A stretch of DNA of 64,000 nucleotides from Amycolatopsis sp. NBC_01480 (lineage in GTDB: Bacteria; Actinomycetota; Actinomycetes; Mycobacteriales; Pseudonocardiaceae). Within the stretch, counting starts at the first letter, position 1. Each line of letters starts with the position of its first letter. The notes under the pieces were generated by a model. That model made no database searches, was not told where the DNA came from, and saw only the letters and a program-made list of their open reading frames with translations. Below, one piece after another: positions 40,261-50,777 of the stretch. A program made the translations under genes and the position numbers. The DNA is taken from positions 9,548,001 through 9,612,000 of the forward strand of contig NZ_CP109442.1 in NCBI RefSeq assembly GCF_036227205.1, given 5' to 3'.

Positions 40261-40833
40261 GTGAGAGAAGCGACCAAGCAGAAGCTCTTCGAGGCGACCC
40301 TGCGGCTTTCCGCCAGCCGGGGCCTCGTCGGGCTGACCGTGGACGACATCGCCACCGAGGCCGGCGTCGCCAAGGGCACCGTGTACTACAACTTCGGGTC
40401 CAAGGACGGGCTGATCGACGGGCTGCTGCGCTACGGCGTGGACCTGGCGGCCGGGCGGCTGCGGGCGGCGGTCTCGGACGCCGACCCGCTGACCGTGATC
40501 GAGGCGCAGATCGATGTCACGCTCGCGTTCATCGCCGAGTACCCGGGGTTCTCGCAGATCCTGGTCAGCGAGCTGTGGCGGACGCCGGGCCAGTGGCACG
40601 ACACGCTGGCGCTGCTGCGCGAGGAACTGATTTCGATCGTCAAGGACCAGCTCCAGCGCCTCGACGACGCCGGGCGGCTGCCCGCGGGCGTGGCCATCCC
40701 GACCGCCGCGGCCGGGCTGTTCGGCACCATGCTGGTGGTGGCGCTGGACTGGCAGGTCTTCCAGCCGGGCCGCACCCGCGACGAGGTTCGCGACGCGGTG
40801 ATGGTGCTGGTGCGCGGCCTCGGCCGGGCCTGA
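40261..40833 (+). CDS. TetR-family repressor of the Pip operon
   Basis: TetR regulator of 190 residues (KLFEATLRLSASRGLVGLTV; ATEAGVAKGTVYYNFGSKDG), with a C-terminal ligand domain (LFGTMLVVALDWQVFQPGRT). It starts with GTG 10 bases after the Pip gene and closes the operon whose promoter carries the 26-base palindrome, so it probably autoregulates. Similar TetR-Pip pairs occur in many actinobacteria. Confidence 0.92.
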   Translation: MREATKQKLFEATLRLSASRGLVGLTVDDIATEAGVAKGTVYYNFGSKDGLIDGLLRYGVDLAAGRLRAAVSDADPLTVIEAQIDVTLAFIAEYPGFSQILVSELWRTPGQWHDTLALLREELISIVKDQLQRLDDAGRLPAGVAIPTAAAGLFGTMLVVALDWQVFQPGRTRDEVRDAVMVLVRGLGRA

Positions 40834-40836
40834 CCC

Positions 40837-40876
40837 GTGAGTGGCTGCGCCGGCCGGGACCGGCGCGGCCACTCAC
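40837..40876. terminator. Bidirectional hairpin between TetR and the Cys-rich gene
   Basis: GTGAGTGGCTGCGCCGG pairs with CCGGCGCGGCCACTCAC (one G-U pair) around a 6-base loop. It starts three bases after the TetR stop and ends five bases before the end of the convergent cysteine-rich gene. Confidence 0.75.
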
Positions 40877-40881
40877 CACTG

Positions 40882-40974
40882 TCAGTGACAGTTGGCGCAG
40901 CAGCCGCAGCCCTTGCCGGTGCACGCGGAGCAGCACCCGTGCCGCATGACGACCTTGAACAGCCGTTTGATCAT
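40882..40974 (-). CDS. 30-residue cysteine-rich protein
   Basis: Tiny basic protein whose first 13 residues (MIKRLFKVVMRHG) form an amphipathic cationic stretch and whose rest, CCSACTGKGCGCCANCH, has seven Cys and a terminal His. The spacing CC-x2-C-x4-C-x-CC-x2-CH suggests metal binding, like a minimal metallothionein or zinc knuckle pair. GGAGGA lies seven bases before the ATG and TAGCGT (41010-41015, minus strand) is a possible -10, so translation is well supported. It has its own terminator side. No modification enzymes lie nearby, so a RiPP is less likely. Family unknown. Confidence 0.75.
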   Translation of the reverse strand: MIKRLFKVVMRHGCCSACTGKGCGCCANCH

Positions 40975-41091
40975 GTCCGTCCTCCGTTCGATCGACGCCG
41001 ACGCATGTGACGCTAAGTGCCGCGGCGGCGACCGCGGTACCGCCGGGCGGGCGGGTGAGCGGGTGAATCACGCCGCGCGAGCACCGGGGGT

Positions 41092-42426
41092 TCACTGTCC
41101 ACAAGGGACGTCCAGCCACTCGCCGCGCGGGACGGCCCGGCGGGTGTCCTCGAGCCGGCTCAGCAGGGTGTCCAGCTGCCCGGGGTCGTTCACGTACTCC
41201 AGGACCGCGCGGTAGAACGCGCCGGTCATGGCAGCGGGCATCAGGTCGGACGCATCGAAGCACACCTGTGAGGGCCCGGTCAGCGCCGCGGCCACTTTGC
41301 GCTTGACCGGGTCGCCGTAGGCCTCCGGGCCCACCTTCGCGCTGGCCGAGAACGCGCTGGCCGAGGCGATGCCCGGCCAGATCCGCTGCGCCGCGGGCGT
41401 GACCAGGAACTGCATCAGCCGCCGGGACTGCGGGGTGTCGTGGAACATCCCGGCCAGGTCCGCCGAAACCACCGAGACGGGCGGACCGGGGAAGCGGAAG
41501 AAGTCGTAGTCGGTGCCCGGGCGCGGGGCCTGCCCGGTCCCGGTGCGCATGGCCTGGTAGCTGCTCATCACGAACGAGCCCTCGTGCTCCATCAGGCAGC
41601 CCGGCGGACTGGCGAACAGCGGGCGGCCCGCGTCGCCGAAGTCGGTGAGCAGCGCGGCCGTGGCGCCGCCGTCGATCCCGCCCGGGTGGACCACCAGCGC
41701 GCCCCAGTCCAGCCACGCCTGGCGGACCTGCGGCGAGGTCCACGGCAGCGTGCCCGCCGCCCACTGCCGGTAGACCGCCGGCCCGGCCGAGTGCAGCAGG
41801 ATGTCCTCGATCCAGTCGGTGCCCGGCCAGCCCGAGACCGGCGGCGCGGACAGGCCGAGGCACCACGGCGCGGTGCCGCTCGCGCTCTGACGCTGGGCCA
41901 GGCTCAGCAGCTGCGGCCAGGTGGCCGGCTTCGCGCCGGGCAAAGCCGAGGGGTGGTACCAGATCTCGCTCTTCAGGTCGGCCTTCACCGCCACGGAGTA
42001 CAGCTGCGGCTCCCCGACGCGTTGCAGGTTCACCCACTGCTTGCCGTAGAAGTCCTCGGCCTGCGGTTCCAGGAAGCCGAGCGGCTGCAGCTCGTGCCGC
42101 CGCACGTAATCGGCCAGCGAGCCGGGGCTCGGCAGCACCGCGACGTCCGGCGCCGTGCCGCGCTGCAGGTCGGCGGCCAGCACCTGGTCGAGCGCGCGGG
42201 TGCCCTGGTAGTCGATGGTGATGTGGGTTTCGTGCTCGAACGCCAGCAGCACCTGGTGGAACGCGTCGCCCTCGGCGCCGGTCCAGGACGCGAGCACGCT
42301 CACGCTGCCACCGTCCGAAGTGGACGAGCAGGCCGTGCTCACGCCGAGCAGGAAAACCGCGGCCAGCACGGCCAGCCGGTGCCGCAGCGGGGCTCTCGAC
42401 GACCGCGAACTCATCGGATTTCTCAT
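41092..42426 (-). CDS. Extracellular solute-binding lipoprotein of the PknG cassette
   Basis: Lipoprotein of 444 residues: signal peptide HRLAVLAAVFLLGVSTAC with the lipid-bearing Cys33. The mature part is a family 1 (ABC sugar-type) solute-binding protein (VLASWTGAEGDAFHQVLLAF; AADLQRGTAPDVAVLPSPGS; EIWYHPSAL; WPGIASASAFSASAKV). No ABC permease is nearby. It overlaps the GlnX-like gene by ATGA at the end of the kinase operon, the position of GlnH in the mycobacterial GlnH-GlnX-PknG system. It is therefore inferred to be the outside ligand receptor. The ligand is unknown and need not be an amino acid. Confidence 0.85.
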   Translation of the reverse strand: MRNPMSSRSSRAPLRHRLAVLAAVFLLGVSTACSSTSDGGSVSVLASWTGAEGDAFHQVLLAFEHETHITIDYQGTRALDQVLAADLQRGTAPDVAVLPSPGSLADYVRRHELQPLGFLEPQAEDFYGKQWVNLQRVGEPQLYSVAVKADLKSEIWYHPSALPGAKPATWPQLLSLAQRQSASGTAPWCLGLSAPPVSGWPGTDWIEDILLHSAGPAVYRQWAAGTLPWTSPQVRQAWLDWGALVVHPGGIDGGATAALLTDFGDAGRPLFASPPGCLMEHEGSFVMSSYQAMRTGTGQAPRPGTDYDFFRFPGPPVSVVSADLAGMFHDTPQSRRLMQFLVTPAAQRIWPGIASASAFSASAKVGPEAYGDPVKRKVAAALTGPSQVCFDASDLMPAAMTGAFYRAVLEYVNDPGQLDTLLSRLEDTRRAVPRGEWLDVPCGQ

Positions 42427-43508
42427 GCCTCGTACCGGTATTCGTCGATGCGCCGGTACAGCCCCCACACCACGAGGCCCGCGGCCAGCACCACGCCGAC
42501 CGGCACCAGCACCGGCAGCCCGCCGGACTCGGTGGCCGAAGCCGCCTGCGCGGTCACGGCCTTGACCGCCGCGGCCACCCGGTCCGTGGTGTCCGGCGCG
42601 GCGGAGACCGGCCGGACGGCCGCCTCGAAATCGTCCACAGTGGACCCACAGCCGGCCGGGGCGCACTGCTGCCGCACCAGGTTCGCGAGCCCGGCCTGCC
42701 CGTTCGCGTCGGTGGCGGCCACCTCGGCCTGGCGGACGGCGAGCGCCTGGTCGACCCGGTCCCGCACGTCGTCGAGCCCGCCGGCCAGGCCGAGCGTGGC
42801 GGACAGCGCCACGACGACCCCGGCGGTGAGCACACTCGCGCCCAGCAGCAACGGGTTGAGCCGGCGGCGGAACCGGCTACGCAGGTACAGCTGGGTGAGC
42901 ACCAGCAGGACCAGCAGCAGCACCGGCGGCAGCAGCCACAGCGGGAGCAGGCCCGCGCTCATGCCATCGCCGGCCAGCTGGCGGTCGAGGGCCGCGCGCT
43001 CCTGCGCCTGCAAGTCCGCCAGCTGCGCCAGCACCCCGCCCGGCGCGTGCAGCAGCCGCGAGGCGTACCAGAGGTCGGCGAGCCCGACGACCGCCGAGCC
43101 GGGCTGGCGGAAGTGCGCGTCGGCCTGGCCCATCGCGCTCGCATACGCGGTGACCAGGCCCGCGACGACCTGCGGGGTGCCGCCGGCGGACTCGTCCGCC
43201 TGGTTGAACTCCGCGACCTGCGCGAGGCTCTGGCTCGCCGCGGCCATCTCGTTCTCGTAGTCCTGCCCCGGCCCGGCGAGTTTCGCCTCGCCCGAAGCGA
43301 AACTGGACACGGCCGCGGCGTCGGCGGACACCAGCGCGTCCCGCGCCGCCGCGACCGCGAGGATCGCCTGGCTCGTCCGGTCCCGCACCAGCACGGCGGT
43401 GTCCACCACGCCGGTGACCGCGAGGTACGACGTGACCAGCGTCAGCACCGCGCACCCGAGCAGGGCAGCGCGCAGCCGGACCAGCGTCACCCGGGTCGTG
43501 GCCCTCAC
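42423..43508 (-). CDS. GlnX-like four-helix membrane sensor
   Basis: Membrane protein of 361 residues with four hydrophobic helices at about 14-34, 186-207, 221-243 and 331-352. Two outside helical domains lie between helices 1-2 (AAARDALVSADAAAVSSFAS onward) and 3-4 (LDDVRDRVDQALAVRQAEVA; two Cys in QQCAPAGCGS). The cytoplasmic tail is short and charged (YRRIDEYRYEA). Topology and context match mycobacterial GlnX, which passes the signal of the GlnH lipoprotein to PknG. It overlaps both neighbours by GTGA/ATGA. Confidence 0.75.
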   Translation of the reverse strand: MRATTRVTLVRLRAALLGCAVLTLVTSYLAVTGVVDTAVLVRDRTSQAILAVAAARDALVSADAAAVSSFASGEAKLAGPGQDYENEMAAASQSLAQVAEFNQADESAGGTPQVVAGLVTAYASAMGQADAHFRQPGSAVVGLADLWYASRLLHAPGGVLAQLADLQAQERAALDRQLAGDGMSAGLLPLWLLPPVLLLVLLVLTQLYLRSRFRRRLNPLLLGASVLTAGVVVALSATLGLAGGLDDVRDRVDQALAVRQAEVAATDANGQAGLANLVRQQCAPAGCGSTVDDFEAAVRPVSAAPDTTDRVAAAVKAVTAQAASATESGGLPVLVPVGVVLAAGLVVWGLYRRIDEYRYEA

Positions 43509-44917
43509 GCGGGGTCCCCCTCGGCCAGCGGTTCGCGGCAGGCCTCGCAGAAGGCGGCCGGCCGCGGCGTCCGCTCACCACAGGCCGGGCACTCCAGCGG
43601 CTCGCCGTCCGGCTGGGGTGCGGCTTTCGGGGTCTCGCCACCGAGGTGCGTGACGCGGGAGATGAGCAGGTTGAGCAGTTCGCTGCGGGTGACGTCGGGG
43701 CGCAGCAGGACGTCACCGGTGCCGGCGTCGACGACTTCGACGATCCGGCGCAGTCGCTTGAGGATCTCCTCGTTCCCGGTCTCGGTGGCGATCCGGATGG
43801 CCCGGCCCCAGGCGGCGCGCGCGCCCGCGTGGTCGCCGGCCGCGTAGGCGTCGCCGCCCTCGGTGAGCGCCTGGCCGAGTCCGTCCTGCACGGTGTACTG
43901 CAGCACCTTCGGATGGATGAGCGTGGGCGGCACCGGATCGTGCGTCCAGCGGCCGAGCACCGGCACGGGCGGGTTCCCGGCGCCGTCGACCTCGACCCAG
44001 GCCAGCTGCCGGTCGCGGTCGTAACTCGGCACCAGGTCCTGGTCGAGGTCCACCGCGAGCTGGTACTCGCGGGTCTCGGCCGCGCCCCAGGAACCCAGTG
44101 ACAGCACCAATTCGCCCTCTTCGCCGGGCACGCAGCGCGAGGTGAGGTCGTAGTCGTGCGGGCGGACCTGCTTGACCGACCGCAGCCGGCTGTAGGCCAT
44201 CGTGCCGATCCGCAGCCGGACCTCGGCCACCACCTTCGTCAGCGCGGCGTCGACCAGCGCGCGGAAATCGCCGGCCAGATCCTCGTCGCGCACCACCGAA
44301 TCGACGCCGCCGCGCAGCACCGTGACGATCTCGGTCAGCTCGGCCGGCTCCCAGCCGTCGCCGATCCCCCGCGCGTCGCAGACGAACTCGCCCTCGCACG
44401 CGTCGAGCACCCGCTGCAGCTCTTCCCGAGACTGCGACTCGTTGCGGCCGTCGGTGAGCAGGATCGCGTGGCGGACGGCCTCGGGCGCGAGCGCGAACAG
44501 CTCCCGGGCCAGGGTGAGCCAGGCGCCCATCGCCGTGCCGCCCACCGCCGCGAGGCGCCCGACCGCCGCCGTGGCCGCACTGCGGGTCTCCGGCGACGCC
44601 GTGGCCAGCCAGGGCCCGTCCGGGTAGACCAGTTCGGCCCGCCCGGTGCCGCGGACGACGGCGAAGCGCGTGCCGTCCGGCAGCACCGAGACCGCCGCGG
44701 CCGCCGCCTTGCGCGCGGCGCCGATCTTCGTCGGCGGGTAGCGCATCGAGCTGGAGCAGTCGACCAGCAGCACCTCCGCCGCGCCCATGCCTGCCGAGGT
44801 GCTGCCGGCCGGTTCTGGCTCGCCGTGCGCCGACACGGTCACGATCGCCTGCATCTGCCGGTCCCCGGCCCCGAGGAACCGGTTCTGGTGGACCTCGACC
44901 TTCAGCCCCACAGCCAT
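43505..44917 (-). CDS. VWA-domain protein with C-terminal zinc ribbon
   Basis: Protein of 470 residues. A von Willebrand A domain carries the metal-ion site VLLVDCSSSM (Asp53, Ser55, Ser57) with GGTAMGAWL and LLTDGRNESQ as the following MIDAS parts. A second beta-rich region follows (EYQLAVDLDQDLVPSYDRDR), then a TPR-like helical segment (ALTEGGDAYAAGDHAGARAA) and a zinc ribbon with Cys443, 446, 457 and 460. It sits between the kinase and the GlnX-like gene. It may be a kinase substrate or a metal-dependent adaptor; role inferred from context only. Confidence 0.85.
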   Translation of the reverse strand: MAVGLKVEVHQNRFLGAGDRQMQAIVTVSAHGEPEPAGSTSAGMGAAEVLLVDCSSSMRYPPTKIGAARKAAAAAVSVLPDGTRFAVVRGTGRAELVYPDGPWLATASPETRSAATAAVGRLAAVGGTAMGAWLTLARELFALAPEAVRHAILLTDGRNESQSREELQRVLDACEGEFVCDARGIGDGWEPAELTEIVTVLRGGVDSVVRDEDLAGDFRALVDAALTKVVAEVRLRIGTMAYSRLRSVKQVRPHDYDLTSRCVPGEEGELVLSLGSWGAAETREYQLAVDLDQDLVPSYDRDRQLAWVEVDGAGNPPVPVLGRWTHDPVPPTLIHPKVLQYTVQDGLGQALTEGGDAYAAGDHAGARAAWGRAIRIATETGNEEILKRLRRIVEVVDAGTGDVLLRPDVTRSELLNLLISRVTHLGGETPKAAPQPDGEPLECPACGERTPRPAAFCEACREPLAEGDPA

Positions 44918-44943
44918 TTTTCGCCCCCTCGTGGTTTCGCCCG

Positions 44944-47232
44944 TTAGAACCAGGTGACCGGCCGGGTCGCGTTGGCCCGGTCGACCAGCACGTCGTGGTG
45001 GGCCGTGGTGCCGGCGTGCCGGCCGATCCGGCGGTAGGAGCCCTCGAGCAGCAGCCGCAGCCCGCGTGCGTCCGGCGCCTCCCCGAGCACCGGGCCGGGC
45101 GGCAGGCCGTGCCGTCCGGCGACCGCGCAGAGCAGCCCGGTCTCGCGGACCTCGGCCGTCAGCCGCTCGGCGGTGTCCTCGTCCAGCTCCAGCGCGGGCA
45201 GCCGTTCGACGGCCTCGGCGAGGTCGGCGGTGCCGGGCAGCCCGGCGCGGCCCGGCAGCACACCGGCGAGCACGCGGACGACCGCGATCCGCGCGGCCTC
45301 GTCGTGGCGCGAGTACTCCGGGACCTGATCGAGCAGCCGCACCGCGGCCGCGCGGTCACCGCGCTGCAGATGCCCGCGGGCCAGCGCGAACGCGGCGTTG
45401 ACCTGAAGGCGGTCACGCACCCACAGCGCGTCGTGGAACGGCTCGGCGCGGGCCGGGCCCTCGAGGTGCTCGAGGCACAGGCCGAGGGCGAGCTTCGGCG
45501 TCTCTTCTCCGGGGATGTCGCGGTAGACCCGGTCGAACTTCGCCCGCGCTTCCGGGACGTCACCCGCGGCCAGCGCCACCAGGCCGCGGTACCAGGCGAT
45601 CCGCCAGTCGTGCTCGGCCCGGGCGCCGAGCAGCCGCGCCGCCGCGGTGACGCAGGCGCCGGCTTGCGCGACTGCCCCGGCTGTCCTGTCCATTTCGGAC
45701 AGTTCGAGCAGGGCGCGGCAGCGGCGCAGCTCCACCTCGACCGAGCGGCCGGACCGGTCCAGCTTTCTGAGCAGCCGCAAGGCATCCGGAGCGCGGACGG
45801 TGCGCAGGAAGGTGATCTCGGCGTCGTTCGGGTCCTCGCGCGGGACGGGCAGCCCCAGCGCGATCTCGCGCGGGGTGGGCAGCGCGTCGAGCGGCGCCGT
45901 GACCCCGTTCGTCCAGTGCTCCAGCGGACGGGCCTGGCCCAGCCCGGCGTCGAGCAGCACGGCGGGCTCGGTGAACAGGGTGGAGATGGCCGGGCGCGAT
46001 TCCCGGTCGCGCAGCGAGAGGATCTCGTGGAGCACCCCGTCGAGCTGGACGAGCATCTCCTGCGCGGTGGCGAACCGGTGGTCGAACCCGCCGGTCGCGC
46101 GGTCCAGCACGTGGGTGAACGAGGTGACGCCGAAGGCGATCGAGCGGTCCTGCGGGCGCGGCCAGCCGTCGCTGGCGAGGAACAGGTCGCGCAGGGTCGC
46201 GCCGACGGTGTGCAGGTCCGACCGCACCGTGAGCCCGTGGTCGGCCAGCTCCGCGTCGCCGATCTGGAACCGCGGGTTGCCGACCACCGGGCTGGCCTGG
46301 TCGCCGATCTTGCGGATCGCGCCGAAGTCGATCAGCTTGATCCGCTTCTCGCCGTGGATCACGTTCTGCGGGCTCATGTCGCAGTAGAGCAGGCCCTGGG
46401 CGTGCAGGTAGTCCAGCGCGGTCAGGATCTCCCGGCCGTACGCCACCACGTGCTCCACGAGCAGCCGCCCCTCGGGGCCGTCGAGCGCCGCGCGGCCGCG
46501 CCGCATCACCTCCGACAGCGGCAGCCCGTCGACGAACTCCATCACGATGTAGCGGGCGTCCTCGCCGCCGTGCGGGTCGGGATGCGTGACGACGTCGTGG
46601 ATCCGCACGATGTTCGGGTGCTCCAGCGCGGTGAGCACTTGGCTCTCGGTCTCCGCGATGCGCACGGCCGCCTCGTCGCTGGTGTTGATCAGGCCCTTGA
46701 GCGCGACGTACTGACCGAGCCGGGTGTCCGTGCCCAGGTAGACGAAACCGAGCCCGCCGCGGGCGATGCAGCCGTGCACCTGGTACCGGCCGTCCACCAG
46801 GTCGCCGGCGAAAAGCTTGGGAGAGAAGGAGAACGGGGTCCCGCAGACCCAGCAGAAGCCCTCCGCGCGGGCCGGCTCCCCATAGCGGGACCGCCCGACT
46901 TCGGCGCCGCAGTCGCGTTTTCCGCAGTGCCGCTCCTGCTCGCTCACGTGCGGTTCGACGATCACGCGGCCGGCCAGGTCGGGCAGCACGACCACGGGCA
47001 GCGGCACGTACTCGCCGCCGGTGCCGTGGCCCGCGGTCTGCTGCGCCCGGGTGACGACGGTGCCGGTGAGGCGGCTCGGGCGCTCCCCCGGCGCCGGGAT
47101 GACCAGCGAAACGGGCCCGGCACCCGGTGTCGCGGCGGCAGGCTCGGGGTCGCCGGGCGCCCAGCCGCACTGGCGGCAGAACCCGGTGCGGCCGATGGTG
47201 CCGTCGCAGTCCTCGCGGGGGCAGCTCGTCAC
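44944..47232 (-). CDS. pknG: PknG-type serine/threonine protein kinase
   Basis: Soluble kinase of 762 residues with PknG architecture: zinc-binding cysteines (Cys4/9/19/22 and Cys103/108/127/130), kinase domain (about 145-420) and C-terminal TPR helices. The glycine loop is GCIARGGLGFVYLG, the ATP lysine Lys179 (YVALKG), the acidic partner Glu195. The catalytic loop reads YCDMSPQN (Asp285, Asn290): no HRD arginine, as in PknG, and Ser where Lys is usual. DFG is intact (Asp302). In mycobacteria PknG phosphorylates the FHA regulator GarA to adjust glutamate metabolism. The extra N-terminal Cys set is unusual. Confidence 0.93.
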   Translation of the reverse strand: MTSCPREDCDGTIGRTGFCRQCGWAPGDPEPAAATPGAGPVSLVIPAPGERPSRLTGTVVTRAQQTAGHGTGGEYVPLPVVVLPDLAGRVIVEPHVSEQERHCGKRDCGAEVGRSRYGEPARAEGFCWVCGTPFSFSPKLFAGDLVDGRYQVHGCIARGGLGFVYLGTDTRLGQYVALKGLINTSDEAAVRIAETESQVLTALEHPNIVRIHDVVTHPDPHGGEDARYIVMEFVDGLPLSEVMRRGRAALDGPEGRLLVEHVVAYGREILTALDYLHAQGLLYCDMSPQNVIHGEKRIKLIDFGAIRKIGDQASPVVGNPRFQIGDAELADHGLTVRSDLHTVGATLRDLFLASDGWPRPQDRSIAFGVTSFTHVLDRATGGFDHRFATAQEMLVQLDGVLHEILSLRDRESRPAISTLFTEPAVLLDAGLGQARPLEHWTNGVTAPLDALPTPREIALGLPVPREDPNDAEITFLRTVRAPDALRLLRKLDRSGRSVEVELRRCRALLELSEMDRTAGAVAQAGACVTAAARLLGARAEHDWRIAWYRGLVALAAGDVPEARAKFDRVYRDIPGEETPKLALGLCLEHLEGPARAEPFHDALWVRDRLQVNAAFALARGHLQRGDRAAAVRLLDQVPEYSRHDEAARIAVVRVLAGVLPGRAGLPGTADLAEAVERLPALELDEDTAERLTAEVRETGLLCAVAGRHGLPPGPVLGEAPDARGLRLLLEGSYRRIGRHAGTTAHHDVLVDRANATRPVTWF

Positions 47233-48896
47233 GCGGGCTCCCCCTCGTCCCGGCCGCAGATGGCGTCGCCGTACTCCTCGACCGCGGCCGTAGCCACGCG
47301 CAGGTCGCACCGGCCTTCGTAGAGCAGCTTCCAGGCCTTGGCGTACAAGGAATCCAGGAGCGGGTCTTCGACGAGCCCGAGCTTGCGGGCCTTGTCGCTG
47401 TAGCTGTCGAGCCGGAAGCGCAGGGCGGTGCGCTGCTCGATCAGGTCGTCCAGGCGCTCCTTCGCCGCGTTCCCGGCGGCGAGGTCCGCGGTGAGGCGTT
47501 GCTCGATCTCCCCGATGTGCCGCCCCGCCCACTCGACGTCGCCCTCGTCGGCCGCCGTGCGCAACTGGTTGACCAGGCCGCGGCGGCGCGCCACCAGGGC
47601 CGGCGGCTCCGGCTCGCCGTCGAAGCGCTCGCTGACCGCCACGGCGTGCTCCTCCAGCGCGGCCAGCTCCGTGACCGCGTTGTCCAGCAAGGAGATCCGG
47701 CTCGCGAGGCCGCCCGGCGGCACCGCGCTCAGCGAACGCAGCGTGGTCACCCCGGGCGAGGACTCGCGGCGGAAACCGAGCGCGAGCCGCAGGCCGAGCT
47801 GCCCTGCGCGGTCGGCCAGCGGCGCGATCACCTCGCCGACCAGCCGGTCCGGCTCCGCGGCATCGTCGATCGCGTTGACCACGACGGTCCGGACCGAATG
47901 CGGGACGGGACCACCGTGGTCCGGCGTGAGCGAAAGGCGTTCGGCGAGCCGGCGGCGGACCTCGTCGACGGACTTGCCCGCGGCGTCCACGGCGAGGTCG
48001 ACGCTGCCCGAGGGCGGCACCGTCCCCTCGGGCACGGTGTCCCGCAGCGAGCCGGCGGCGGCCGCGCGCTCCCGGTCGGCCAGCACGACGCCGAGGTCGA
48101 GCGCCACGGCGCGGGCCGAGCCGCGCTCGCCGGTGACCACCACCCACACCGGCGGCCCCGAGCGGTTCGCCTTGTCGCCGAACCAGCCGGCCAGCTTCCG
48201 CGCGAACGCCAGGTCGTAGGCCACGACGTGCGGCGCGCTGCCGAAGCCGGTGCTGAAGGTCGGGTCGACCGCCGGGCTGCCGTCGCCCCAATCGCGCAGG
48301 CCGCCGAAGTACCCGAGCACCGTCTCGACCGGGATCATCCACGAGGCGAAGTCCCCGTCCGCGACGTAACGGCCGACCACCATGCCGACGACCCGGCCGC
48401 TGTCCTCGGCGAGCACCGCCGTGCCGCTGTACCCGGAGTCGATCGGGGGCGAGTCCGGCCGGCGGGCCAGCTGCACCCATTCGCCGGCAGGGCCGCCCTC
48501 CCCGGTCAGCGTGCCGCGGAACCACAGGCCGTCGTCCGCGCCGGGCGGGAAGCCGTACGCGCGGACGGGCAGGCCGTCGGGCAGCGGCATCCGGTGCAGC
48601 GGCGCGGGAAACACCCCGGGCTCCGGCTTCTCCAGTTTGAGGAGCGCGACGTCGCCGCGCTCGTCGGACCCGGCCGGCACCCAGCCGCCGTCCACCACCT
48701 TCGCTGTTCCGGTGGGGGCTTCGAGGATCCCGACGAAGTCCGCGGACAGCTCGGCCTCCGGGCCGCCCGCCTGCTCGACGACGTGGGCGCAGGTGAGCAG
48801 GTACCGCTCGTCGAGCATGGTGCCCGCCCCGTGGATCCGCCCGTGCCGATCGCGCAGCCGGACCCGCCAGCGTCTTCGCTCGGCCTGGTAACCCAC
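47229..48896 (-). CDS. Trypsin-like serine protease-domain protein, first gene of the kinase operon
   Basis: Protein of 555 residues from GTG 48896. The N-terminal chymotrypsin-fold domain has a full triad: His38 (LLTCAHVV), Asp82 (RGDVALLKL) and Ser157 (DSGYSGTAVL, in place of GDSGGP). Residues about 200-360 are a second domain (VVAYDLAFARKLAGWFGDKA; PVWVVVTGERGSARAVALDL) that resembles no family by eye. The last 150 residues are helical (LAALEEHAVAVSERFDGEPE; QRTALRFRLDSYSDKARKLG). No signal peptide, so it acts in the cytoplasm. It overlaps pknG by GTGA. The upstream ATG 48956 has no ribosome site. Confidence 0.85.
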   Translation of the reverse strand: MGYQAERRRWRVRLRDRHGRIHGAGTMLDERYLLTCAHVVEQAGGPEAELSADFVGILEAPTGTAKVVDGGWVPAGSDERGDVALLKLEKPEPGVFPAPLHRMPLPDGLPVRAYGFPPGADDGLWFRGTLTGEGGPAGEWVQLARRPDSPPIDSGYSGTAVLAEDSGRVVGMVVGRYVADGDFASWMIPVETVLGYFGGLRDWGDGSPAVDPTFSTGFGSAPHVVAYDLAFARKLAGWFGDKANRSGPPVWVVVTGERGSARAVALDLGVVLADRERAAAAGSLRDTVPEGTVPPSGSVDLAVDAAGKSVDEVRRRLAERLSLTPDHGGPVPHSVRTVVVNAIDDAAEPDRLVGEVIAPLADRAGQLGLRLALGFRRESSPGVTTLRSLSAVPPGGLASRISLLDNAVTELAALEEHAVAVSERFDGEPEPPALVARRRGLVNQLRTAADEGDVEWAGRHIGEIEQRLTADLAAGNAAKERLDDLIEQRTALRFRLDSYSDKARKLGLVEDPLLDSLYAKAWKLLYEGRCDLRVATAAVEEYGDAICGRDEGEPA

Positions 48897-48903
48897 GCCG
48901 GGG

Positions 48904-48909
48904 ACCCTA
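48904..48909 (-). promoter_or_regulatory. -10 hexamer, leaderless promoter of the kinase operon
   Basis: On the minus strand TAGGGT is followed by seven bases and GTG 48896, the same spacing as at coaE. Confidence 0.5.
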
Positions 48910-49135
48910 CGCCGGGCGATGGCGGCGCCGGGGCGGCTTCGGCGAAAGTGGACCATGCTGGAGCAATGGCCTCACCCGTTCGGCGCTGGGACATCACCCG
49001 GTTCGCCGAATTCCTGGACTACGGCTGAGGAATCGTCGAACGACGGGACCGGGACGCGGATTTCCCGCTGTCGTGTAACGGCATTCGGAGTGGTGCACGC
49101 GCCGATGCACGGTAAAGGTGTTGTGCGCCGGCCTT

Positions 49136-49855
49136 TCACCGCCCCCGGATCCCGGCGACCGCCTGGAGTTCCTTGCCCAGCAGCTCGGCCCCGTCCCCGA
49201 AGAACGCGTCGTCGAACTCCCGCGCGATCGCCGCGGCCCGCTCCGCGAGCACCCGCCCGTCCACACTGAGCGCGATCCGCATCGACCGCGCGTCGGACTC
49301 GTGCGCGGTCCGGCTGAGCAGACCGCGTTTTTCCAGCAGCCGCAACACTTTCGAGGTCATCATCCGATCGGCACCCGCCTGCTCCGCGACCTCCTGCTGA
49401 GTGGCGGGCCCGCCCCGGCGCTCGAGCCGGTCTGCCGCGGACAGCAGGAGGAACTGGGTCGGCGTGAGGCCGAGCGGCCGCAGCCGGAGGTCGAGCTGCG
49501 CCCGCCAGGTCAGCGCCGCCTGGTGCAGCCAGAACCCGGCCGGGGGCGCGGATTCCGGGGTGGATTCGGGGCCGGGCAAGGGTTCTTGGGGTGCCGCGGG
49601 TGCGGCGGGGTGGCCGGGTGCCGTGGCTGCGCCACGGTGGGCCGAAAGAGGGTCCGGCGCGGCGGCCTCGACGACCGCCAGAGGTGGCGCAGCGGCCTCG
49701 GCAGTCGCCGGGGGTCGCGCGGGGTTGGGTGGATCCGGGGCCGAGGTGGTGGCGGGTACGGAATCCGCAGTGAACAGGCGGTCGCAGGGGAGGTTCCTCA
49801 ACGCGGTCGTGGCCGGTCCTTTCTCGTGGATAGTGTCCGAGATCTCGTACATCAT
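49136..49855 (-). CDS. MarR-family regulator with disordered N-terminal extension
   Basis: The last 140 residues are a MarR winged helix (LDLRLRPLGLTPTQFLLLSA; ATQQEVAEQAGADRMMTSKV; GLLSRTAHESDARSMRIALS). They are preceded by about 95 residues rich in Pro and Ala (DPPNPARPPATAEAAAPPLA), unlike usual MarR proteins of 140-160 residues. GGAAC lies just before ATG 49855. A shorter start inside the extension cannot be excluded. No target gene is adjacent, and the ligand is unknown. Confidence 0.82.
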   Translation of the reverse strand: MMYEISDTIHEKGPATTALRNLPCDRLFTADSVPATTSAPDPPNPARPPATAEAAAPPLAVVEAAAPDPLSAHRGAATAPGHPAAPAAPQEPLPGPESTPESAPPAGFWLHQAALTWRAQLDLRLRPLGLTPTQFLLLSAADRLERRGGPATQQEVAEQAGADRMMTSKVLRLLEKRGLLSRTAHESDARSMRIALSVDGRVLAERAAAIAREFDDAFFGDGAELLGKELQAVAGIRGR

Positions 49856-50043
49856 GCGTTCCGATCGCCCGGACGGATGGCGGTCCGGGCAGGCAGCGGC
49901 GCCGCTCGGGTCGGGATGCCGCCAGGGTGCGGCGGCAGCACCGCCCAAGCGCGGTGACACTGGTGCAGTACCAGCGCTTCCCGGATGCGGCACCGGGTGT
50001 CCAGCCGTGGCAGCGCTGGGCGCCCGGGTGCCGAGCGCCGTGG

Positions 50044-50598
50044 TCAGCGGGCGGCCAGTGGCAGGTCGAAGCGGCCGAAGACCCAGGTGCCGGGGGCGTC
50101 GGGGTCGTTGCCGGCCCAGAATTCCGTCCAGTGCTCGGCGAATTCACCGGCGGACAGGTAGCCGTCGCCGTCGAGGTCGAGGATCGGGAAGATCTCGTCG
50201 GTGGGGGTGCCGGCGCCGTTCCAGGTTTCGATCAGGCGGCGGTATTCACTCTGGGAGATGCGGCCGTCGCCGTTCTCGTCGATCGCCCCGAACATCGCGC
50301 CGGCGGTGCTGGTGACGGCGTCCGGCATGTCGCCGAGCTGGTCGACGACGAGCAGGACCTCCTCGACGGTTACCTGGCCGTCCCGGTTGACGTCGGAGGC
50401 GGCGAGCAGGGTCGTCCACCAGCCCATCATGGTTTCCGACAGCCGCTCCGCCTCCGGTGAGCCGGCGTGCACCCCCCGCGCGGCGACCCACCTCGCGGCG
50501 AGCGCGGCGAAATCGGATTCGGTGAGGAATCCGTCCCCGTCGACGTCCATCGCGCGGAACACCGTGGTGATCTTGCGTCTCTGCAGTTCGCTCGCCAT
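50044..50598 (-). CDS. EF-hand calcium-binding protein (calerythrin-like)
   Basis: Protein of 184 residues with four EF-hand loops: DVDGDGFLTESD, DVNRDGQVTVEE, DENGDGRISQSE and DLDGDGYLSAGE. All four keep the ligands at positions 1, 3, 5 and 12, so four calcium sites are possible. Length and layout match calerythrin of Saccharopolyspora and streptomycete CabD-type sarcoplasmic proteins, thought to buffer or sense Ca2+ in the cytoplasm. It is a single gene with the start at ATG 50598. Confidence 0.93.
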   Translation of the reverse strand: MASELQRRKITTVFRAMDVDGDGFLTESDFAALAARWVAARGVHAGSPEAERLSETMMGWWTTLLAASDVNRDGQVTVEEVLLVVDQLGDMPDAVTSTAGAMFGAIDENGDGRISQSEYRRLIETWNGAGTPTDEIFPILDLDGDGYLSAGEFAEHWTEFWAGNDPDAPGTWVFGRFDLPLAAR

Positions 50599-50777
50599 CG
50601 TCCGTCCCTTCCGGTCCCCCTTGGCCGGGGACCCGCCGGAGCACTCAGCGTTGTCCCGCACCAAGATCACCACTACCGGCAGGCGGGTTCGGCGGCGACA
50701 CGGACCGGTGATTCCGGCGGTGACTGGATGTGTTCGCAAATTTTCGCCACCATTCGAAGCCGGCTGGTGACAACAAA

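Follow-up and report, generated by a model that had tools for sequence, protein, structure and literature searches.

A paralogous PknG system linked to a sugar-type lipoprotein, a VWA protein and a trypsin-like protein in Amycolatopsis sp. NBC_01480

Introduction

The GlnX-GlnH-PknG pathway is established in Corynebacterium glutamicum and in mycobacteria (PMC9769921, PMC6069109, PMC8546545; published work is cited throughout from the available parts of each paper). We compared with it a five-gene cassette carried by a stretch of 64,000 nucleotides of Amycolatopsis sp. NBC_01480 (contig NZ_CP109442.1, positions 9,548,001 to 9,612,000 of the forward strand; hereafter the window). The cassette codes for a trypsin-like protein (PROT), a PknG kinase (PKNG2), a VWA protein, a GlnX-like membrane protein (GLNX2) and a solute-binding lipoprotein (LIPO), and in our judgement it is probably a paralogue of the canonical GlnX-PknG system that signals across the membrane, with a sugar-type sensor and a VWA/protease output.

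The GlnX protein of C. glutamicum has four transmembrane segments and a long N-terminal cytoplasmic region, its cytoplasmic parts were proposed in 2022 to meet the TPR domain of PknG, and a leaderless mRNA is assumed for its gene (PMC9769921). The binding proteins linked to PknG have been treated as amino-acid binders, and the control of other kinases by binding proteins was foreseen (PMC6069109). The same paper names SGR_4432, SCO1468 and MSMEG_1200, Ser/Thr kinases to which a solute-binding protein is linked or fused; the binding protein is thought to control the kinase, as it may in the cassette, but these kinases are not PknG.

Two other kinds of described system share parts with the cassette. 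The TerY-P triad consists of a TerY-like VWA protein, a PP2C phosphatase and a Ser/Thr kinase with a zinc ribbon (Anantharaman et al. 2012, via PMC11090510), while a trypsin-STAND fusion and a VWA partner are found in predicted conflict systems (Kaur et al. 2020, PMC7159879). A literature search by titles and abstract starts gave no account of the present cassette; the word VWA is absent from PMC8546545, and PknG is absent from PMC7159879, the 2020 eLife survey of conflict systems. The SCO4775-4779 genes of Streptomyces coelicolor were considered as an instance of the cassette and rejected, as they are described as five kinase genes in a paper in which neither PknG nor VWA occurs.

Results

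PKNG2 and the canonical PknG of the same genome

Comparison of PKNG2 with Pfam showed the PknG_rubred (PF16919, 8.8e-15), Pkinase (PF00069, 6.9e-26) and PknG_TPR (PF16918, 2.1e-56) domains, in the order rubredoxin-kinase-TPR and all three above the Pfam cut-off, and comparison with solved structures gave PDB 2pzi_A at 8.6e-95. The host genome contains two full PknG genes, and the product of the other is 42% identical and is encoded within a canonical glnX-glnH-pknG operon. Because the host also has this separate canonical operon, the cassette is a paralogous second PknG system. PknG was patchy, with 14 positive genomes out of 198 in a phylum sample and 116 out of 298 in an order sample.

The PknG tree (89 of 109 sequences after thinning) and the lipoprotein tree (91 of 121) were made by short searches with a midpoint root. 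The second-type kinases formed a clade of 48 of the 89 rows of the PknG tree, with an SH-aLRT value of 97, while five further second-type kinases (Kitasatospora and f18 genomes) had long branches on the canonical side. The catalytic K, D, N and D residues were intact in all 68 second-type kinases (with one gap at K). The lysine of the DxKP motif is replaced in a few of these kinases, by serine in 4 of the 68 (the window and A. circi, L114, among them), by histidine in 3 and by asparagine in 1.

Linkage of the five genes across genomes

GLNX2 gave a match at E <= 1e-8 in 41 of the 150 genomes sampled in the family. Five of these matches were weak; four were mapped and corresponded to canonical GlnX (L080-L083), and the genome of the fifth (G541) was not fetched. 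The other 36 genomes were all mapped, and a second-type PknG gene and a lipoprotein gene were adjacent to the membrane-protein gene in every one of them (36/36). Protease and VWA genes were also present in 30, in the window's order in 29 and permuted in one (L077). The initial annotation had read the locus as a ligand-sensing system of the GlnX-PknG type and had chosen beforehand, as its test, the linkage of protease and VWA to pknG in relatives; the reading is supported by the 36/36 linkage and by the sugar-class lipoprotein, and the test came out in its favour in 30 of the 36 genomes found via the membrane gene. A second test set in advance, whether homology searches would assign the membrane protein and the lipoprotein to unrelated families, did not go against the reading either.

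A larger set of 109 distinct PknG loci included 53 in the window's order, 11 with PknG, membrane protein and lipoprotein only, 4 other second-type loci and 41 canonical ones, and the gene order of the window was kept in 53 of the 68 second-type loci. This set is not a census: its loci were gathered via VWA, GLNX2, lipoprotein and hand-picked PknG matches, loci sharing the same PknG end entered as one, stop-to-stop frames served as genes, a protease scored as present may be a helical-only match, and one locus tallied as three-gene (L133) has a weak VWA match (87 bits). The three-gene form was nested at several places in the PknG tree, which suggests repeated loss of the protease and the VWA protein.

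Within the host's genus the lipoprotein gene was found at 1e-40 in 46 of 80 genomes, host included, and the closest named relative of LIPO is that of Amycolatopsis circi (65%). The nearest relatives of the window (L031-L035, L115) have the cassette at one site, between polA and TetR/YhgE/ABC genes, and only the polA flank is seen in the truncated L114. Other Amycolatopsis cassettes (e.g. L036, L116, L124, L128 and L138) are without the window's flanking genes.

The GlnX-like membrane protein and its C-terminal tail

GLNX2 matched the NCBIfam model of the GlnX family at 1.1e-27 with 97 bits, under the 250-bit cut-off, and the model was matched by 26 of the 26 aligned GLNX2 members. The GLNX2 profile aligned with canonical GlnX over residues 9-274 (hhalign 7.1e-32), and when 10 candidates of its own genome were scored with it, the sole other match was canonical glnX. 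By these comparisons GLNX2 is a GlnX homologue and not a member of the family at the curated cut-off, and all three confirm the membrane protein as GlnX-like, as first annotated.

Hydropathy segments at residues 7-25, 186-204, 220-238 and 329-347 predict four transmembrane segments, two outside domains and a short C-tail, so that the predicted cytoplasmic parts are only a short loop (about residues 205-219) and the short tail. The four segments are in common with the GlnX of C. glutamicum, but GLNX2 is without the long N-terminal cytoplasmic region. The tail residues R353, E356 and Y357 were invariant in the 26-member alignment, and the arginine and the glutamate were also kept in 23 canonical GlnX proteins. 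An E-Y-[RGQW] motif was present among the final 14 residues in 67 of 71 GLNX2 and in 29 of 34 canonical GlnX proteins, counts that include species entered twice and one split gene (L032). In that locus (genome G090) an internal stop or a frame change divides the GlnX-like gene in the assembly. The string EYR is absent from the text of PMC9769921. We propose the R-x-x-E-Y-R tail of GLNX2 as a candidate docking peptide for PknG, which would reduce the published question of the route from GlnX to PknG to one short, conserved stretch that is testable as a peptide.

Membrane-protein/lipoprotein pairs located apart from pknG (L135, L153, L156, L157 and L158) kept related tails. A PknG is encoded elsewhere in the genomes of all five, and with L193, which is cut by a contig end, and two controls this was the case in 8 of 8 genomes. 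Since each of the five pairs thus has a PknG at a distance in its genome, a single PknG may receive input from several GlnX/lipoprotein pairs.

The lipoprotein

LIPO matched SBP_bac_1 of Pfam (2.5e-12), whereas the canonical glnH product of the same genome matched SBP_bac_3 (1.8e-27); LIPO thus lies outside solute-binding protein (SBP) family 3, the family of the Asp/Glu-binding GlnH. When a profile of 27 LIPO sequences was compared with solved structures, AcbH, NagB1, NagB2 and a glucose-binding protein were nearest (1.1e-13 and weaker). Both results agree with the lipoprotein having been placed initially in the family 1 (sugar-type) class and not in the amino-acid type.

Relatives of LIPO outside the cassette adjoin BPD_transp_1 permeases in 3 of the 3 loci tested (L131, L144 and L172), and 45 alignment columns, SGWPGTDW-ED among them, are common to the lipoproteins of the cassette and of the transporter group. 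In the lipoprotein tree, the midpoint root of which is weak, 50 cassette sequences separated with few exceptions from 36 others and from the 5 pairs without a local pknG. LIPO shares family and signature with the sugar ABC-transporter binding proteins of the AcbH and NagB1/2 class, but there is no permease among the cassette genes, and at the position that is an arginine in 80% of the transporter group LIPO has a cysteine (C375). From its family and nearest solved relatives, the ligand of LIPO is most likely a carbohydrate.

The protease and its pseudo-STAND domain

PROT matched Trypsin_2 of Pfam (1.1e-12), and the triad H58/D102/S177 (P0001 numbering) was complete in the window. No transmembrane segment was found by hydropathy, and both results agree with the earlier description of a cytoplasmic trypsin-like protein with a full His-Asp-Ser triad. 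The triad was kept in 62 of the 65 protease homologues, that of locus L051 included. An assignment of PROT to HtrA/DegP was rejected (NCBIfam 0.14).

A trypsin-STAND-WD40 protein with an intact Walker A motif is encoded at L051:191-4210 (minus strand), near a pknG-VWA-glnX-glnH locus. Comparison of this protein with a profile of the middle region of PROT gave 1.6e-18 by hmmsearch (one target) and 8.9e-11 by hhalign. The Walker A pattern GxxxxGK[ST] was found in 1 of the 65 homologues, which is the L051 protein itself (GTPGVGKS), a non-cassette protein, the other 64 being without the motif, and Pfam found no NTPase model over 27 protease members. Because of the L051 relative, and with Pfam giving no NTPase, the middle region of PROT is, by profile comparison, a STAND-like domain without Walker A and thus a predicted pseudo-NTPase.

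In the canonical operons of other actinomycetes a gene between glnH and pknG codes for a helical protein, and the last 146 residues of PROT matched its C-terminal part (hhalign 1.2e-21, with 19 helical proteins compared). Since this domain matches a separate protein of canonical operons, PROT resembles a fusion of a PknG partner with a trypsin-pseudo-STAND head. The weak matches to the protease that canonical operons gave were rejected as trypsins, because only the C-terminal helical parts were in common.

The VWA protein, zinc ribbons and canonical operons

The VWA protein matched VWA_3 of Pfam (7.5e-14), and the metal ion-dependent adhesion site (MIDAS) showed no variation in any of the 81 VWA proteins. 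A MIDAS-bearing protein with a zinc ribbon had been annotated; the MIDAS is complete, while the ribbon is a CxxC pattern for which the Pfam model DZR stays below threshold (17.2 of 27.3 bits). Of the VWA proteins, 40 of the 56 second-type ones had the C-terminal CxxC pair pattern, as against none of the 25 canonical ones.

A VWA gene was found in 25 and a PP2C gene in 26 of the 41 canonical loci. Canonical loci with VWA are over-represented, some of them having been found via VWA; among the 24 obtained from PknG matches alone, 13 have VWA. No PP2C gene was found in the 68 second-type loci on the same strand within 7.5 kb, and another count, of 43 second-type loci, likewise gave none. The initial annotation regarded both protease and VWA as gained by the unit; their linkage is confirmed, but the VWA protein is not a gain of this unit only, since canonical operons of other actinomycetes have one, usually with PP2C.

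A six-gene canonical operon, glnX-glnH-helical-pknG-PP2C-VWA, was present in 16 of the 109 loci (L040, L042, L043, L045, L046, L049, L050, L087, L091, L094, L096, L098, L101, L107, L108 and L113). By its predicted products this unit is PknG joined to a TerY-P-like triad; the available parts of the cited PknG papers make no mention of it. In these operons, as in the cassette, PknG mostly has an N-terminal zinc ribbon and adjoins the same helical C-terminal domain and a VWA protein, but PP2C is present, the helical protein is without trypsin and STAND domains, and the sensor is of family 3 in the 3 operons tested.

The N-terminal zinc ribbon of PknG was found in 60 of 79 loci with VWA and in 5 of 28 loci without it (Fisher 1.3e-7, kinship uncorrected), the incomplete loci L044 and L047 being excluded and L123 lying outside the set of 109, and it is suggestive that the ribbon accompanies VWA. 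Tested on independent pairs, the rubredoxin domain showed no link with VWA (median p 0.5). Among second-type PknG proteins as such, pattern search found the rubredoxin domain missing in 9 of the 12 without VWA (L055-L058, L066, L072, L097, L118 and L120) as against 5 of the 56 with VWA.

Comparison of the cassette with the canonical mycobacterial and corynebacterial pathway showed that the PknG kinase and TPR domains, a GlnX-family protein and a lipoprotein sensor are in common, as is the rubredoxin domain except in corynebacteria. The cassette differs in having a sensor of SBP family 1 instead of 3, a protease and a VWA gene in the operon, another gene order and a mostly separate PknG clade. 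With the TerY-P triad it shares a MIDAS-bearing VWA protein beside a zinc-ribbon kinase (the ribbon by pattern), but it has a trypsin-pseudo-STAND protein instead of PP2C, an outside sensor and, as the kinase, a PknG with TPR domain whose ribbon is N-terminal and not C-terminal. The trypsin-STAND fusion and VWA partner of the conflict systems (PMC7159879, as far as its available part goes) recur in the cassette, which differs from the vWA-based systems in the loss of Walker A, the absence of a MoxR-type ATPase from the five genes and the presence of a sensor lipoprotein.

Discussion

The second GlnX-PknG system that we consider probable could work as follows. A lipoprotein of the sugar ABC-transporter class would bind a solute from outside, most likely a carbohydrate, and would contact the four-segment GlnX-like membrane protein. 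The R-x-x-E-Y-R tail of GLNX2 would then engage the TPR domain of PKNG2 and set its kinase activity. PKNG2 would act on, or within a complex with, the MIDAS VWA protein and the trypsin/pseudo-STAND protein; the complex may be held by two elements, the PknG zinc ribbon and the C-terminal helical domain of PROT, and phosphorylation would either activate or silence the protease. In favour of a partnership of PknG, VWA and protease, canonical operons as well pair PknG with the helical domain and with VWA. In this way the known PknG signalling scheme appears to be rewired to a different signal and probably to a different output. The comparison also brings out VWA, PP2C, the helical protein and the protease as PknG partners, which are not described in the cited PknG literature as far as available.

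A bolder version, which we hold only tentatively, is that an outside sugar controls intracellular proteolysis via PknG, that the STAND domain of the trypsin gave up NTP binding and is switched instead by phosphorylation through the VWA adaptor, and that several GlnX/lipoprotein pairs may feed one PknG.

Several observations weigh against a second system with sugar sensor and VWA/protease output. The protease and VWA genes are missing in 6 of the 36 family-sample loci and in 11 of the 68 second-type loci, and are therefore not essential to the sensing core. The triad is gone in 3 of the 65 protease homologues, and among the 30 family-sample loci with a protease gene two are without it (L075 and L079). 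The zinc ribbon is absent in 19 of the 79 loci with VWA, and its link with VWA could be followed on only 6 tree-independent pairs, with the same direction in 4.9 of the 6, the opposite direction in 0.1 and a median p of 0.06. The GlnX protein of L051, which has a pknG nearby, ends in RLRELS, without E-Y. The LIPO sequence of the window alone finds no solved relative at 1e-3, and five second-type kinases of Streptomycetaceae and f18 genomes lie outside the main group of the PknG tree, as do their lipoproteins in the lipoprotein tree.

The main rival is that the cassette gives the classical pathway a second input, fed by sugar. PKNG2 would then phosphorylate the FHA protein that canonical PknG also acts on (GarA/OdhI), and 2-oxoglutarate dehydrogenase would be tuned by sugar outside the cell in addition to amino acids, with the VWA protein and the protease as helpers in assembly or turnover. 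This would account for a PKNG2 with rubredoxin, kinase and TPR domains all present and for the 11 of 68 second-type loci that consist of the classical three parts only, and the pathway itself is established in C. glutamicum and mycobacteria. The host, however, already has a canonical PknG, and since the rubredoxin domain is missing in 9 of the 12 second-type loci without VWA (5 of 56 with VWA), the stripped form is not simply classical. We regard this rival as rather unlikely, though to be taken seriously. The same 11 three-gene loci would also suit the idea that the protease and the VWA protein are merely operon-mates of a sensor kinase, with an unrelated target of their own; this we find very improbable, given the order kept in 53 of 68 loci, the tendency of the zinc ribbon to accompany VWA and the helical domain common to canonical operons.

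Another rival is a conflict or cell-suicide system, in which the STAND-like trypsin, the VWA protein and the kinase would respond to damage or phage by cleaving proteins of the cell; a role of the conflict-system kind had been put forward as an alternative in the initial annotation. A homologous trypsin-STAND-WD40 protein does exist in L051, kinase, PP2C and vWA genes occur in the theme of predicted conflict systems (PMC7159879), TerY-P-like modules are reported in antiphage defence (PMC11090510), and the place of the cassette varies across Amycolatopsis. The alternative is nevertheless weakened: the cassette proteases are without Walker A, the site of the cassette, next to polA and the TetR/YhgE/ABC genes, is the same in the window's nearest relatives, and the VWA protein had a match at 1e-15 in 1 of 72,556 plasmid records, a record of 11.85 Mb. 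In addition, PADLOC at 1e-3 returned nothing for VWA, GLNX2 and LIPO and matched the other two proteins only by the kinase domain or, weakly, by the trypsin domain, while the sugar-type lipoprotein and the GlnX-like protein are regular parts of the cassette. A defence role is thus less likely, and we rate it as improbable.

Cassette layout, promoter and neighbouring genes

The five genes occupy positions 41092-48896 of the window on the minus strand, in the transcription order protease, pknG, VWA, membrane protein, lipoprotein, with open reading frames extending to 48956 (Table 1). Overlaps of 4 bases each were found at 42423-42426, 43505-43508 and 47229-47232, and the single intergenic gap is of 26 bases (44918-44943); the coordinates reproduce the three overlaps and one gap first annotated. 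The upper limit given at that time, 48909, is the first base of TAGGGT, and an in-frame GTG follows at 48896 after 7 bases.

Table 1. Positions in the window of the genes, domains and motifs of the cassette
Feature	Positions	Strand	Basis or description
-10 element TAGGGT of leaderless promoter (putative)	48904..48909	minus	7 bases ahead of in-frame GTG 48896
Protease gene PROT	47229..48896	minus	trypsin, pseudo-STAND (predicted) and helical domains
Trypsin_2 domain of PROT	48381..48830	minus	Pfam 1.1e-12
STAND NTPase-like domain of PROT, without Walker A (predicted)	47757..48206	minus	profile comparison with L051 protein
Helical C-terminal domain of PROT	47232..47669	minus	hhalign 1.2e-21
Second-type pknG (PKNG2)	44944..47232	minus	Pfam domains, PDB match, tree
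PknG N-terminal zinc ribbon CPREDC...CRQC	47167..47223	minus	pattern match
VWA gene	43505..44917	minus	MIDAS DxSxS-T-D, VWA_3_C, C-terminal CxxC pairs
GlnX-like membrane protein gene GLNX2	42423..43508	minus	four predicted transmembrane segments
GLNX2 C-terminal tail RRIDEYRYEA	42426..42455	minus	candidate PknG docking peptide
Lipoprotein gene LIPO	41092..42426	minus	extracellular solute-binding protein family 1

The arrangement of TANNNT, 6 to 8 bases and an in-frame start was present at 42 of 57 distinct protease-gene starts as compared with 1.3 in mononucleotide shuffles. The 57 starts, with the window and the unlinked L051 gene included, are what is left of 65 after removal of 8 identical in sequence to another. 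Because this spacing recurs, a leaderless promoter ahead of the protease gene is well supported as a prediction, in line with the single one suggested at first, and the start of PROT is most likely GTG 48896 (555 amino acids) rather than ATG 48956. A sigma-70 promoter scan of 40800-49300 found none (0.2 in shuffles), and Rfam gave no match over the whole window at gathering thresholds.

A MarR-like gene and an EF-hand gene, named by reading of their sequences alone, lie at 49136-50739 of the window, between the cassette and polA; at 1e-15 neither was matched in L031-L035 or L115, which are Amycolatopsis relatives.

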